A stretch of DNA of 32,870 bases, taken from contig JAJYRM010000042.1 of assembly GCA_021794075.1 (NCBI GenBank), positions 1 through 32,870 of the forward strand, given 5' to 3'. The position numbers were made by a program, and so were the translations under genes. Source of the stretch: Bacteroidota bacterium (GTDB lineage Bacteria > Bacteroidota > Ignavibacteria > Kryptoniales > JAKASW01). The notes below the pieces were generated by a model, which saw nothing but the letters and a program-made list of their open reading frames with translations, did not search any database and had not been told where the DNA came from. This document shows positions 23,083 through 27,922 of this stretch, one piece after another (within the stretch, counting starts at the first letter, position 1; every line of letters starts with the position of its first letter).

Positions 23083-23829
23083 TTACTGCTTTTGCAGTCT
23101 AAAAGTAAACGGTATTACGACCCAAACCGCGACGGGACCATGGTTCATGATCGCGGGCGTGAACCTATACTGCATTGCAGCATCGATTGCCGCCTGATCA
23201 AAGATCTGAGCATCGCTCTTGAGAACGATCGCCTTGTGGGGCTTACCGTCTTTGTCGACCCAGATCTTCACGATGACTCTGCCTTCGATTCCAGCCCTTT
23301 GAGCAAGCTCAGGATATTTCGGCGTTACCTGCTTTATAATCTGAGGCTCTTTTTCCACCGGTACAAAGTCGGGTGGCGGGGCGTCGCTTGCGGGGACTTT
23401 GAAATCCCCCATCGAGACTCCGACCGAATCTCCGCCCGTCCCCTGCGTGACCGGACCAGCTATCTTGCTCAACTGTTCCTGCGTCGCAATAGTCTGCTCA
23501 GGGGAGACTTGGGCGTCAGGAACTGGAACAGGAATTCCAACATTCGGTTTCGCCATAGGAGTAGAGAGCTGAATCTTCGGAAGAGCCTGCTGATTCATGA
23601 TCGAAGGGGGCGGCCCGAGTTCACTGTACGTCAGAACACGGACAGTCGGCATGCTCTCGTCTTCCCGGTTCAAATACTGTGCTCCCCAGTAAGCGCCGAC
23701 ACCGATGAAGTGGACGGCTATCGCGATAGCCAGACCAACTCCCGTGTACTTCTGAGCCAGGCGCTTGAGAAGAGGGGCACCGTATTGTCCCTGGGCAACG
23801 GTGCTTTGTGCTACTTTCTTCTTTGCCAT
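23083..23829 (-). CDS. tonB: TonB-family energy transducer
   Basis: The 248-residue protein has a short cytoplasmic N-terminus, one membrane helix (about residues 30-50, containing LAIAIAVHFIGVG), a proline-rich periplasmic stretch (about 85-165) and a C-terminal TonB domain: VTPKYPELAQRAGIEGRVIV, KIWVDKDGKPHKAIVLKSD and FDQAAIDAAMQYRFTPA. TonB carries proton-motive force from ExbB/ExbD to outer-membrane receptors. It directly follows two exbD genes on the same strand, with a good ribosome site (AAGGAGG). The YP motif and the A-AMQYRFTPA segment are typical of the Bacteroidota-style short TonB. The receptors it serves are not in the window. Confidence 0.93.
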   Translation of the reverse strand: MAKKKVAQSTVAQGQYGAPLLKRLAQKYTGVGLAIAIAVHFIGVGAYWGAQYLNREDESMPTVRVLTYSELGPPPSIMNQQALPKIQLSTPMAKPNVGIPVPVPDAQVSPEQTIATQEQLSKIAGPVTQGTGGDSVGVSMGDFKVPASDAPPPDFVPVEKEPQIIKQVTPKYPELAQRAGIEGRVIVKIWVDKDGKPHKAIVLKSDAQIFDQAAIDAAMQYRFTPAIMNHGPVAVWVVIPFTFRLQKQ

Positions 23830-23847
23830 ATTAGTTCAACCTCCTTT

Positions 23848-24342
23848 TCATTTCGCGCCAACCTTTGCTAACGCGGCCTGATCTTGAGGCGTCATTGGTG
23901 CCAAACTAAAGCGCGTCACGTTGTCGAGGTTTAGTTCGTCAAGTATGTTGATCATGTCCTGGTATTTGGCTTTCCGGTCAACCTTTATAAGCGTGACGAG
24001 CCGCGGATTAGCCTTGTTCTCATCGATAATCAACTTGCGGAAATCTGCCCACGCGACCGGTTTTGGCGGCTGCGTTCCAATCGTCCAGTAAATTGATCCA
24101 TCTGGCACGACCAAGAGCGTCATCAGATTTGACGCGGCAATTTCAACCTTGGTGTCTCCCGGCGGGAGGTTGATCTCCATCGCCTGGGGACGATTGAATG
24201 CCGTTGTCAACATGAAGAACGTCAACAGAAGAAACGCGACGTCCACCATCGGCGTCATGTCGATGCGGATCGCAATCCTTCTTTTCTTCTTGTGTCCGCC
24301 CTTTTTCTTGCCATGAGGTTCGGCTACTTGTACATCAGCCAT
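23848..24342 (-). CDS. exbD: ExbD/TolR-family transport protein (second copy)
   Basis: This 164-residue protein has a Lys-rich cytoplasmic start, one membrane helix with the family motif RIDMTPMVDVAFLLLTFFM (Asp34 is the conserved membrane aspartate that carries protons) and a periplasmic domain of about 110 residues ending with NVTRFSLAPM. ExbD forms the stator core with ExbB. It starts three bases after the first exbD stops (ribosome site GGAGG within the end of that gene), so the pair is translated together. It differs from the upstream copy, especially in the periplasmic half (IYWTIGTQPPKPVAWADFRK), consistent with a heteromeric ExbD pair as seen in other Bacteroidota. Confidence 0.93.
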   Translation of the reverse strand: MADVQVAEPHGKKKGGHKKKRRIAIRIDMTPMVDVAFLLLTFFMLTTAFNRPQAMEINLPPGDTKVEIAASNLMTLLVVPDGSIYWTIGTQPPKPVAWADFRKLIIDENKANPRLVTLIKVDRKAKYQDMINILDELNLDNVTRFSLAPMTPQDQAALAKVGAK

Positions 24343-24344
24343 CT

Positions 24345-24869
24345 TTAGCCCTCCTTACCGCCTCCGCCGCTGCGGAGTTCAGTTTGCAGGTTGAACCTCG
24401 AGACTTGCGCCTTCTGAAGATCGTTCATGACGTCCATGACCGGTCCGTAGTCGGCATCCTTATCAGCCTTGATGACGGTTATCAACCTTATATTCTGGAT
24501 ACGTGCCTGGACCACCAGGTTGGCGAGGTCCTTTGGCTGCACTGGGACCGCCGGCACCAGCCATACTGGCACAATTTTCCCGTCTTTGTCTTGTATCCCG
24601 TTCGGATACATCGGCTCAAAGAGGGCCTTCATTATCTGCTGCTGATCGACTCCCATGAATATCTGTCCAGCTTTGTCAATACTGATAGTAAGGACTCCGC
24701 TTTCAGGCAGCTTCGGACCCTTGTCCGACGATGGCAGCGTTATCTGTACTGCCTGCGGCGGTTTGAACTGGGTCGTCATCATGAAGAACGTAAGAAGCAG
24801 CATAGCAACGTCCACCATCGGGGTCATGTCGATCCTGATGTTGAGCCGTCTTTTCTTAATTCTAGGCAT
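24345..24869 (-). CDS. exbD: ExbD/TolR-family transport protein (first copy)
   Basis: This 174-residue ExbD has the motif RIDMTPMVDVAMLLLTFFM with the proton-carrying Asp20 in its single membrane helix, then a periplasmic domain. It contains an extra segment of roughly 25 residues (NGIQDKDGKIVPVWLVPAVP) absent from the second copy, and ends in a Gly-rich tail. A ribosome site (AAGGAGC) precedes the ATG. It lies 22 bases after exbB. The two copies in tandem are a known arrangement in Bacteroidota; I infer unequal roles, since their periplasmic halves are diverged while the membrane motif is almost identical. Confidence 0.93.
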   Translation of the reverse strand: MPRIKKRRLNIRIDMTPMVDVAMLLLTFFMMTTQFKPPQAVQITLPSSDKGPKLPESGVLTISIDKAGQIFMGVDQQQIMKALFEPMYPNGIQDKDGKIVPVWLVPAVPVQPKDLANLVVQARIQNIRLITVIKADKDADYGPVMDVMNDLQKAQVSRFNLQTELRSGGGGKEG

Positions 24870-24891
24870 TTGCTAAGCTCCTTGAAAGCGG

Positions 24892-25623
24892 TTACTTACT
24901 GTCGAAGTTTCTCGAATTCAATATCGCAATGATGCTGGCGGTTGCTTCATCGATCATATAAGTGAAACCGTCTACTTTATTAACAAAGAAGTTGTACGCA
25001 ACGATTCCCGTGATAGCCGCTATCAAACCGCCCGCGGTATTGATAAGAGCTTCCGAGATACCGATTGACAGCTGGATGGCGTCCGGAGCGCCGGCGTGGG
25101 CCAGAGCCTGGAACGCGCGGATCATTCCAATAACCGTTCCCAGCAGACCGACCATAGTGGCAATCGAAGAAATCGTGGAAAGGACGATGAGGTTCTTCTC
25201 TAGAAGCGGCGTCTCGAGCATCGTAGCCTCTTCGATAGCGCGCTGAACTTCCGACATATACTTCTCAGCTTGTACATGGCTGTCTTTGAGAACTTCCTGA
25301 TATCTCTCCAGGCCGTTGCGGATAACGTTAGCCATAGAGCCTCTCTGCCTGTTGCAGACATCGATCGCGGCCTTGATATCGCCGTTATTGAGGTTGTCTT
25401 CAACGTCTTTGAGGAACTTTGTGAGGGATCCTTTTCCCTGCGCCTTACGGAGTGAGAAGATGCGCTCGAACACGTATGTGAAAACCATCAACGAGAGCAT
25501 GATAAGGAGAATGACAAGCGGTCCGCCCTTGGTGATGAAACCGGGAAGGAAATAGGAGTAGACCACGTAAGCAATAGCAAACGCGACGATGATGAGAACC
25601 GTCGCAAACAGGCCTTGTTTCAT
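24892..25623 (-). CDS. exbB: ExbB/TolQ/MotA-family proton channel
   Basis: This 243-residue inner-membrane protein has an N-terminal helix (about 5-28), a second near 38-52, a cytoplasmic region with KYMSEVQRAIEEATMLETPL, and the conserved membrane pair STISSIATMVGLLGTVIGMI and EALINTAGGLIAAITGIVAY. These are the ExbB/TolQ hallmark helices (GLLGTVxGM and TxxGLxxAI), which line the proton path with ExbD's aspartate. Two hydrophobic segments before the cytoplasmic region give the four-helix layout seen in some Bacteroidota. A strong ribosome site (AAAGGAGG) lies ten bases before the ATG. It is third in the operon, after the receiver and STAS genes. Confidence 0.93.
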   Translation of the reverse strand: MKQGLFATVLIIVAFAIAYVVYSYFLPGFITKGGPLVILLIMLSLMVFTYVFERIFSLRKAQGKGSLTKFLKDVEDNLNNGDIKAAIDVCNRQRGSMANVIRNGLERYQEVLKDSHVQAEKYMSEVQRAIEEATMLETPLLEKNLIVLSTISSIATMVGLLGTVIGMIRAFQALAHAGAPDAIQLSIGISEALINTAGGLIAAITGIVAYNFFVNKVDGFTYMIDEATASIIAILNSRNFDSK

Positions 25624-25677: not shown

Positions 25678-26034
25678 CTATTTTTTCTCTTTCGAGAAAC
25701 TCGCAACCGCGTCGATCTGCGTGTCGCGCACGTCGAACACCATCGTTAGCTTCGTTACGACGAAAATGTTCTTTATGTTCTTGTTGAGGTTCGCCAGTTT
25801 TACCTCACCGCCGTTCTTGGCGTAATGCGTATGCGCCCAGATCAAGACACCAATCGCGGTGCTGTTCAGATAAGTGGTCTTGCCAAGATCGACAACCAGC
25901 TTCTTGTTACCGTCGGCGGATAATTTACTGACTTCGGAACGGAGTTCATCCGTTTCCTCGCCACCGATCAACTCGCCTTTTGGCTCGATGACCGCAACCT
26001 CGCCGTCCGCAAGCTTCGATACCTTCAACGCCAT
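25678..26034 (-). CDS. STAS-domain protein (anti-sigma-factor-antagonist-like)
   Basis: The 118-residue protein is a single STAS domain: VAVIEPKGELIGGEETDELR, KKLVVDLGKTTYLNSTAIGV and a C-terminal half with GGEVKLANLNKNIKNIF. The segment after the LVVDL strand is the phosphorylation loop of SpoIIAA/RsbV-type regulators, usually D-S-S-G; here it is N-S-T-A with Ser58 in the usual site. In that family an anti-sigma kinase phosphorylates the serine, and the unmodified protein releases a sigma factor. No kinase or phosphatase is encoded nearby. It sits 12 bases after the receiver gene and 54 bases before exbB, with a GAGGAG ribosome site, so it is probably co-transcribed with the energiser genes. 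Confidence 0.85.
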   Translation of the reverse strand: MALKVSKLADGEVAVIEPKGELIGGEETDELRSEVSKLSADGNKKLVVDLGKTTYLNSTAIGVLIWAHTHYAKNGGEVKLANLNKNIKNIFVVTKLTMVFDVRDTQIDAVASFSKEKK

Positions 26035-26046
26035 TTTCTCCTCACT

Positions 26047-26418
26047 TTAGTTTAGAGTTTCCTTGATTGAATTCGAAATATCAGAAATGCTGAAAGGTTT
26101 TTCAATGAACGCCGAGACGAAGGCAGAAAGCGACTTGCTCTGCATTTCACGCTCGGAGATTCCGACTGCAATCATAGGGACGCCAGGTTTCACTTTAGCG
26201 GCTGCCTCAACGAAATTTCCCAGCACTTTTTCGGGCATTTCACCGTCAACAATCAAAAGATCCACGCGCGCCTTGATCAGACGTTCCAATGCCGCATCCA
26301 GATTGTACTCGCAATGAACCCGAAAACCGATTTGATTCAAGTATTGCTCAATCAGTCCGGCTACCCTCAGGTCACTCGCTGCTATCAGGATGCTCCTGGA
26401 TTCTTCAGGTGTACGCAC
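26047..26418 (-). CDS. Response-regulator receiver-domain protein, degenerate
   Basis: The 123-residue product is a lone receiver domain without an output domain. It has the phosphoacceptor region DLLIVDGEMPE (Asp58) and the conserved lysine in AFIEKPF (Lys107). The acidic pair normally near the N-terminus is reduced to one residue (AASDLR, Asp16), and the Thr/Ser switch position reads AVGIS. So phosphorylation may still occur but signalling is likely altered. The start is GTG and no ribosome site is clear. It is the first gene of the minus-strand operon, followed by the STAS gene after 12 bases; a receiver next to a STAS protein suggests one signalling module. Confidence 0.75.
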   Translation of the reverse strand: MRTPEESRSILIAASDLRVAGLIEQYLNQIGFRVHCEYNLDAALERLIKARVDLLIVDGEMPEKVLGNFVEAAAKVKPGVPMIAVGISEREMQSKSLSAFVSAFIEKPFSISDISNSIKETLN

Positions 26419-26737
26419 GCTTCAATATTGTCAATTTAGATGCCGAAGACGCTCAACTTCAAAAACATCGATCCAAACGCGCTTTGAAACCTTCCAGCAC
26501 TCGGGGGTATTCAGGAAGACGTGTGTCAGCATGCAAATTGCAAGGAACCAACGAAGATTGCAAGCCAATTTTTCCAATCTCAAATGTGTAAGCTCGAAAC
26601 AATCTTCCCTTCCGCCGAGTATTTCATTTACAATTTCCTCCTTTCCGGAAGTCGCGTCACAACGAAGCCCCACATTGCTTGACTTCCGCTGAACGCAGAC
26701 TTAGATTAATGATAGTCAACAGGGAGGAGACGAGGAG
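26419..26737. other. Divergent promoter region between the receiver operon and the baeRF gene
   Basis: This 319-base gap separates two divergent transcription units and contains no gene. It is AT-richer than its surroundings. A sigma-70-like promoter for the plus-strand gene is listed separately. I could not identify a convincing -35/-10 pair for the minus-strand operon. Confidence 0.5.
26679..26707 (+). promoter_or_regulatory. Probable sigma-70-like promoter of the baeRF gene
   Basis: TTGACT at 26679-26684 and TAGATT at 26702-26707 are separated by 17 bases. The start codon of the baeRF gene lies 31 bases past the -10 box and has a strong ribosome site (GGGAGGAGACGAGGAG) in between, giving a short leader. 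Confidence 0.5.
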
Positions 26738-27922
26738 ATGATCACCCATCAGGAAATAAACCTATTACTAAACTATACGGCGCGTGAGGGACTCGCAATC
26801 TCGTTCTATCTCAATACTGACGGCAGCGAACGCAACAGGAATATCTGGAATATAGAAGCGAAGGACATCATCAAGAAGGCGCGTAAAGATCTCGAGGCCA
26901 TGAACGTAAGCCGGAGATATTACGAAACTGCCGAGAATAGTCTCAGGAAAATTCAGAATTTCGTCAACACAGAGAATTTCGCCCCGCATTACAAGTCTAT
27001 CGCGATATTCGCCAACGCGGTTGAAAACTTCTACCAGGTCTACCACTTGCCGGTTGCGCTGAAATCCAGCCTGACTCTCGACACAAATTTCTATCTCAGA
27101 CCGCTGCTCGCCATGCTTGAAGAACATTATCGCATAGGCGTTGTTCTCGTCGATTCGAGACGCGCGAGACTCTTCGAAGCATATATGAATGAAATAGTCG
27201 AACACAACGATTTCGCCACAAAGACCAAACCACAGAGGAAGCCGCTCATGGAAACCTTCATGAAGCGGGAGAAGAATCTGATGCAGCGGAGGGAAGAAGA
27301 GACGCGCTACCACCTCTCCTCGACGGCGGAAGCGCTCAGGACCCACTCCGCGCGCCGGCATTTTGATAAACTCGTTATCGGAGCCCGCAAGCCTATCGGC
27401 GATCACCTCGCGAGGCTTTTGCACCGCACTCTCCAGTCTAATATCATCGCGGTGACTGAGATGGAGATAACCGAGAAGGAAAAGGACGTCCTCGCGAAAG
27501 TAATCCAGGCCGAAAGGAACTTCGAGGTTGAAGAGGAGCGCAAGCTCCTCAGGAAGATTTGCACTGAAATTGAAAAAGAAGGCTATGGCGTAAAAGGGAT
27601 CACGAGGGTCCTTGAAGCCGCTCAGGAGTATAACCTGCAAACCCTCGCCGTTGCCGAAGACTACTCCGTTCAGGGAATGGTATGTCCGGAATGCGGGATG
27701 CCCCACATAGACCGGCAGGTATGCGTCTGCTGCGGCAGACAGCTTGTCGAAGTTTCGGATGTGATTTACGACCTCGTCGAGGAGGCCGCGAGGCAAGGCG
27801 CTACCGTTCGTCACGTCAGGGGTGAAAGTCTAATGCCATCGCTTGAAAATGTGGCGGCAATTATTAAATTCAAACGAGGTGAACTGGTCCGTGTCGAGGA
27901 GGCTAGCGAGGACGAATTCTGA
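26738..27922 (+). CDS. Bacterial eRF1-like protein (baeRF family) with zinc ribbon
   Basis: The 394-residue protein resembles bacterial relatives of archaeal/eukaryotic release factor 1. Residues about 1-125 form a helix-rich N-domain, 130-240 an eRF1-domain-2-like part (YRIGVVLVDSRRARLFEAYM, then a charged helix and FDKLVIGARKP), and 245-390 a pelota/eRF1-domain-3-like part (VLAKVIQAERNFEVEEERKL, VKGITRVLEAAQEYNLQTLA). A zinc ribbon is inserted in domain 3: Cys316 and Cys319 (CPECG) with Cys329 and Cys332 (CVCCG), as in archaeal aRF1. The GGQ motif for peptidyl-tRNA hydrolysis is absent, so a ribosome-rescue or stress-related role is more likely than termination. That role is inferred from published work on the family. 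Strong ribosome site; divergent from the receiver-STAS-Exb operon. Confidence 0.75.
   Translation: MITHQEINLLLNYTAREGLAISFYLNTDGSERNRNIWNIEAKDIIKKARKDLEAMNVSRRYYETAENSLRKIQNFVNTENFAPHYKSIAIFANAVENFYQVYHLPVALKSSLTLDTNFYLRPLLAMLEEHYRIGVVLVDSRRARLFEAYMNEIVEHNDFATKTKPQRKPLMETFMKREKNLMQRREEETRYHLSSTAEALRTHSARRHFDKLVIGARKPIGDHLARLLHRTLQSNIIAVTEMEITEKEKDVLAKVIQAERNFEVEEERKLLRKICTEIEKEGYGVKGITRVLEAAQEYNLQTLAVAEDYSVQGMVCPECGMPHIDRQVCVCCGRQLVEVSDVIYDLVEEAARQGATVRHVRGESLMPSLENVAAIIKFKRGELVRVEEASEDEF

Follow-up and report, generated by a model that had tools for sequence, protein, structure and literature searches.

A probable Balon-type ribosome hibernation factor of baeRF family 10 with an aRF1-like four-cysteine ribbon and no GGQ motif

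The window, that is, the entire stretch of 32,870 nucleotides analyzed here, encodes a protein of 394 amino acids that is best explained as a Balon-type ribosome hibernation factor from the baeRF family 10 branch, a reading that we consider probable. Proteins of this kind are already known (baeRF_family10, Balon-like), and what remains of interest is the combination of a ribbon at the EF-Tu loop site with the loss of the Gln. The view of the preliminary description that bacterial homologues of archaeal and eukaryotic release factors are poorly characterized is outdated, because the work on Balon supplies a structure and a mechanism for such homologues (PMC10901736). The gene and its parts are as follows:

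26722 to 26729, plus strand: Shine-Dalgarno sequence GGGAGGAG, a strong ribosome-binding site ahead of the baeRF ATG (from sequence)
26738 to 27922, plus strand: baeRF family 10/Balon-type protein, 394 aa (open reading frame, Pfam and predicted structure)
26738 to 27067, plus strand: N domain with the eRF1 N-domain fold, residues 1-110 (VIA against 2lgt, Z 12.3)
27092 to 27517, plus strand: M domain matching PF18854, residues 119-260 (2hst, Z 12.5)
27206 to 27283, plus strand: short, basic loop that replaces the GGQ loop, residues 157-182, with the core ETFMKREK at 172-179 (alignment)
27533 to 27874, plus strand: C domain, eRF1_3/Pelota-like, residues 266-379 (5eo3, Z 12.3; 3ir9, Z 11.9)
27683 to 27733, plus strand: four-cysteine ribbon of the zinc-ribbon type, C316, C319, C329 and C332, at the site of the EF-Tu-contacting beta-loop of Balon (alignments)

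The open reading frame, which starts with ATG, is a genuine gene under strong constraint: comparison with the nearest orthologue gave a dN of 0.054 versus a dS of 1.39 (dN/dS ~0.04), as expected under purifying selection. It is present in one copy in its own 4.53 Mb genome and was found intact in 12/12 other genomes of the genus as well as in the 7 sister-family genomes searched. Across 18 aligned orthologues, which are 25-90% identical to the window protein, 35 columns are invariant. A scan of the contig collection returned only 3 close relatives, one from a Candidatus Kryptoniota bacterium and two from Bacteroidetes bacterium MAGs, and no match to the window protein was obtained in the plasmid collection.

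An AlphaFold2 model built with 38 relatives (mean pLDDT 84, pTM 0.61) displays all three eRF1 domains in the predicted fold, and its single domains match isolated N, M and C domains of eRF1 (VIA). The relationship to eRF1/aRF1 proposed at the outset is thus borne out by the predicted three-domain fold and the structure matches, and the absence of eRF1 domains 2 and 3, which would have spoken against it, was not observed. The top PDB match of the model is the cryo-EM structure of Msmeg1130 (Foldseek E 8e-23; VIA Z 29.4, 366 residues, 4.7 A), followed by Balon of Psychrobacter urativorans (VIA Z 22-23) and Rv2629 (Z 20.5); the best of these matches are Balon homologues in complex with ribosomes. 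The eRF1/aRF1 structures align with Z 19-20 and at a larger rmsd, of roughly 10 A upwards, and full Pelota/Dom34 chains with Z 9-12. The shared fold superfamily and the absence of GGQ would also suit a non-catalytic Pelota/Dom34-like rescue or splitting factor, which would enter stalled ribosomes at the A site and bring in a splitting partner, and Dom34-like roles have been proposed for baeRFs by Burroughs and Aravind (PMC6514570). However, the Balon proteins resemble the model far more closely (Z 29) than the full Pelota/Dom34 chains do, and we consider such a role unlikely. Nor is a splitting GTPase or ABCE1 partner known for bacterial baeRFs.

The family assignment was corroborated by profile searches. 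Among the baeRF families, the protein matches baeRF_family10 (PF18854) with 75.8 bits against a cut-off of 27.1 over residues 119-260, and eRF1_3 is matched in the C domain below the cut-off (E 0.0018). The NCBIfam hibernation-factor model for AOC03_06830 (Balon) was recovered with E 4e-22, albeit with a score of 79.2 versus the equivalog cut-off of 330. The same applies to the MSMEG_1130 model (E 6e-16, 58.4 versus 480), the Rv2629 model (E 6e-6, 25.6 versus 320) and the aRF1_eRF1 model (E 1.5e-10, far under its equivalog cut-off). Msmeg1130 is also the closest solved structure by sequence (phmmer E 3e-4; profile E 1.2e-9). In the phylogenetic tree, the clade of the window protein (98/92) is separate from the clade containing P. 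urativorans Balon and AOC03 (100/100). The rows for aRF1 and Msmeg1130 fall on the ribbon side, but both placements are unsure; because of their long branches, we did not rely on the positions of aRF1, Msmeg1130 and the relative L096.

Msmeg1130, the Balon homologue of Mycobacterium smegmatis (PDB 8v9j, 8v9l), shares with the window protein the full-length three-domain fold, a short middle loop without GGQ, the lack of NIKS and of the His-Pro motif, and an insert at the C-domain site where the window protein has its ribbon. The two proteins are, however, only 17-18% identical, and the Msmeg1130 insert has no Cys pairs (GADG...APHS versus CPEC...CVCC). P. urativorans Balon (AOC03_06830; PDB 8rd8, 8rdv, 8rdw) likewise shares the architecture and, like the window protein, has neither GGQ nor NIKS, yet it belongs to its own fully supported clade and carries a His-Pro motif, a long PTC loop and an EF-Tu(GDP)-binding beta-loop, none of which is recognizable in the window protein. 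Archaeal aRF1 (PDB 4af1, 3ir9) has the same domain order and a Cys ribbon at the matching C-domain position, but possesses GGQ and releases the peptide. According to the literature, aRF1 also carries NIKS.

Balon, Msmeg1130 and Rv2629, which are devoid of NIKS and GGQ, have been described as stress factors that bind the ribosomal A site (PMC10901736). By analogy, the window protein would be expressed and enter the A site under stress or starvation, with the N domain at the decoding centre reading no codon. The M domain would point towards the peptidyl-transferase centre, where its short basic loop would be unable to hydrolyse peptidyl-tRNA, and the C domain, with a zinc ribbon of the aRF1 type, would be turned to the region where factors bind, close to EF-Tu and the L7/L12 stalk. 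Such binding would hold the ribosome occupied and inert, without peptide release, until recovery. Against this hibernation reading we count the equivalog scores far under their cut-offs, the missing His-Pro motif and the ribbon in place of the beta-loop, and also the lack of linkage between baeRF and HPF/RaiA or chaperone genes in the loci examined. The single HPF gene of the genome is located on another contig than baeRF.

The loop at the GGQ site is predicted with low confidence (pLDDT about 60 at residues 161-180). In a comparison with the bL27 trap and lasso loop of Balon-type factors, it is about 15-20 residues shorter than the loop of P. urativorans Balon. The GGQ site aligns with about M170-E171-T172 in the HMM alignment or with F173-M174-K175 in the MAFFT alignment, and neither the sequence nor the alignments of the window protein contain GGQ or a Gln at the catalytic position. 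In the sister family, GYHGFD is found at this site, whereas the ribbon-less relatives L100 and L101 keep a KDQRQD stretch. The protein was suspected from the start to lack GGQ and thus not to be a normal release factor; the sequence and the alignments agree, and action by the GGQ mechanism would therefore not be expected. Family 10 typically keeps a conserved Gln (PMC6514570), so that the window protein belongs to the family by its Pfam score and differs from it in that its lineage, judging from the alignments, has lost the catalytic Gln described for the family. The Gln-bearing members have been suggested to be active alternative release factors that hydrolyse peptidyl-tRNA in special circumstances, and a ribbon-bearing relative (L096/L119) keeps GGWSQ; for the window protein such an activity is highly improbable, given that no conserved Gln or Gly-Gly occurs at the loop in this protein and 19 other order-level orthologues.

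At the decoding end, NIKS was found neither in the sequence nor in the alignment of the window protein, and the His-Pro motif is missing: TDGSER (in LNTDGSERNRN) occupies the position of THREHP in P. urativorans Balon. Msmeg1130, a published A-site binder (PMC10901736), is likewise without the His-Pro motif in our alignment.

The four cysteines form the motifs CPEC (316-319) and CVCC (329-332). All four are invariant in the 18 aligned orthologues and align with the ribbon of Methanosarcina mazei and Halobacterium aRF1, which upholds the earlier comparison of this element with the aRF1 ribbon; the aligned counterpart of this segment in Msmeg1130 is the insert without Cys, and in P. urativorans Balon it is the region of the beta-loop. 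The ribbon was found in 20/20 order-level orthologues, and 34 other distinct baeRF loci from the class (37 listed rows minus 3 duplicates) lack it. The ribbon itself is not unique, because family 10 proteins with a ribbon are also present in other parts of the phylum (family f30, L096 and L113). Judging from the conserved cysteines, it presumably binds zinc. The two-strand insert seen in many baeRFs may, as Burroughs and Aravind guessed, represent a zinc ribbon that has degenerated (PMC6514570), and the window lineage would fit this idea as the retained state.

In Balon, the C-domain beta-loop contacts EF-Tu(GDP) (PMC10901736). It is conceivable, if doubtful, that the ribbon functionally replaces this loop through a zinc-dependent contact and engages EF-Tu or the L7/L12 stalk differently; the contact would perhaps be zinc- or redox-sensitive. 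If so, exchanging the loop for the ribbon would give Balon-type hibernation a second mode, and a state intermediate between aRF1 and Balon would be preserved in the window branch. An archaeal release factor is regarded as the ancestor of Balon. In the window lineage, the ribbon is intact and the catalytic Gln is gone, whereas other family members have kept the Gln and lost the ribbon. These opposite losses mean that the two changes are separable, and the path leading from a release factor to a hibernation factor thus becomes testable with extant proteins.

The baeRF gene faces a receiver-STAS operon across exactly 319 bases (26419-26737), as originally proposed and as the coordinates and Pfam matches confirm. 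The neighbours and intergenic elements are:

23083 to 25623, minus strand: ExbB, ExbD, ExbD and TonB (TonB_C) (Pfam)
25678 to 26034, minus strand: STAS domain protein (Pfam)
26047 to 26418, minus strand: receiver domain protein, the divergent neighbour (Pfam)
26538 to 26564, no strand assigned: direct repeat TTGCAAG-N13-TTGCAAG, conserved genus-wide (footprint)
26679 to 26707, plus strand: sigma70-type promoter TTGACT-N17-TAGATT, kept in 13/13 genus loci (footprint)

The promoter lies about 30 bases before the baeRF start in every genome (13 intergenic regions), and apart from its window copy the 32.9 kb contain no strict match. The second hexamer varies within the genus, being TAGATT or of the TTACATT type. 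The two TTGCAAG copies, at 26538 and 26558, are nearer to the receiver side, and the repeat is possibly an operator. A wider TTGCAAG regulon was considered and rejected, because the repeat has a single exact match across the genome (4.5 Mb), and control patterns have 2 and 1. In the sister family, neither the TTGCAAG repeat nor a pair of TTGACT/TTGACA hexamers was detected upstream of the gene, a lone hexamer being present in L019.

Outside the genus, the surroundings of the gene are different. A rhomboid protease gene directly precedes baeRF, apparently in an operon, in 7/7 sister-family genomes (L074:6084-7918; upstream of L014-L020), and a HAD-family gene follows it in the sister-family locus examined. 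In another family of the class (L120, genome G034), STAS-ExbB-ExbD occurs without baeRF at that location and without a receiver match. The STAS gene joined to the energiser genes may be the older unit.

The preliminary description had further suggested joint stress control of baeRF and the receiver-STAS operon. The divergent pairing, whose conservation bears on this point, was found in all 12 other genomes of the genus; it is absent in the sister family, where none of these neighbour genes is near baeRF in six loci. The same 12 genomes also keep galK and, within the reach of the contigs, msrB to one side, with PstS, TPR and H+-PPase to the other; the entire 12-14 kb segment is thus syntenic and the pairing is not singled out. 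The baeRF-receiver linkage is therefore a genus-level arrangement, being replaced by a rhomboid-baeRF-HAD operon in the sister family, with STAS-ExbB-ExbD standing apart from baeRF in another family of the class. Moreover, baeRF has its own canonical, housekeeping-type promoter close to its start, and shared control thus does not follow from the shared region. Although the pairing within the genus and the conserved repeat in the gap would accord with co-regulation of baeRF and the receiver-STAS-ExbB/D-TonB operon in one stress pathway, we regard this scenario as weak and distinctly unlikely.

Two further observations concern relatives of the genes described here. The ribbon-bearing family 10 relative at L096:1321-2412 on the plus strand (identical with the L119 locus, from genome G371 of the same phylum) has KKGGWSQKR at the GGQ site, resembling the GGxSQ of VLRF1 factors, and on this basis its product is a candidate active bacterial peptidyl hydrolase; the same genome contains a second baeRF copy, without the ribbon, elsewhere from L096. 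In some members of the genus (loci L063, L070 and L071), a second TonB-like gene directly follows the first in the ExbB/D operon.
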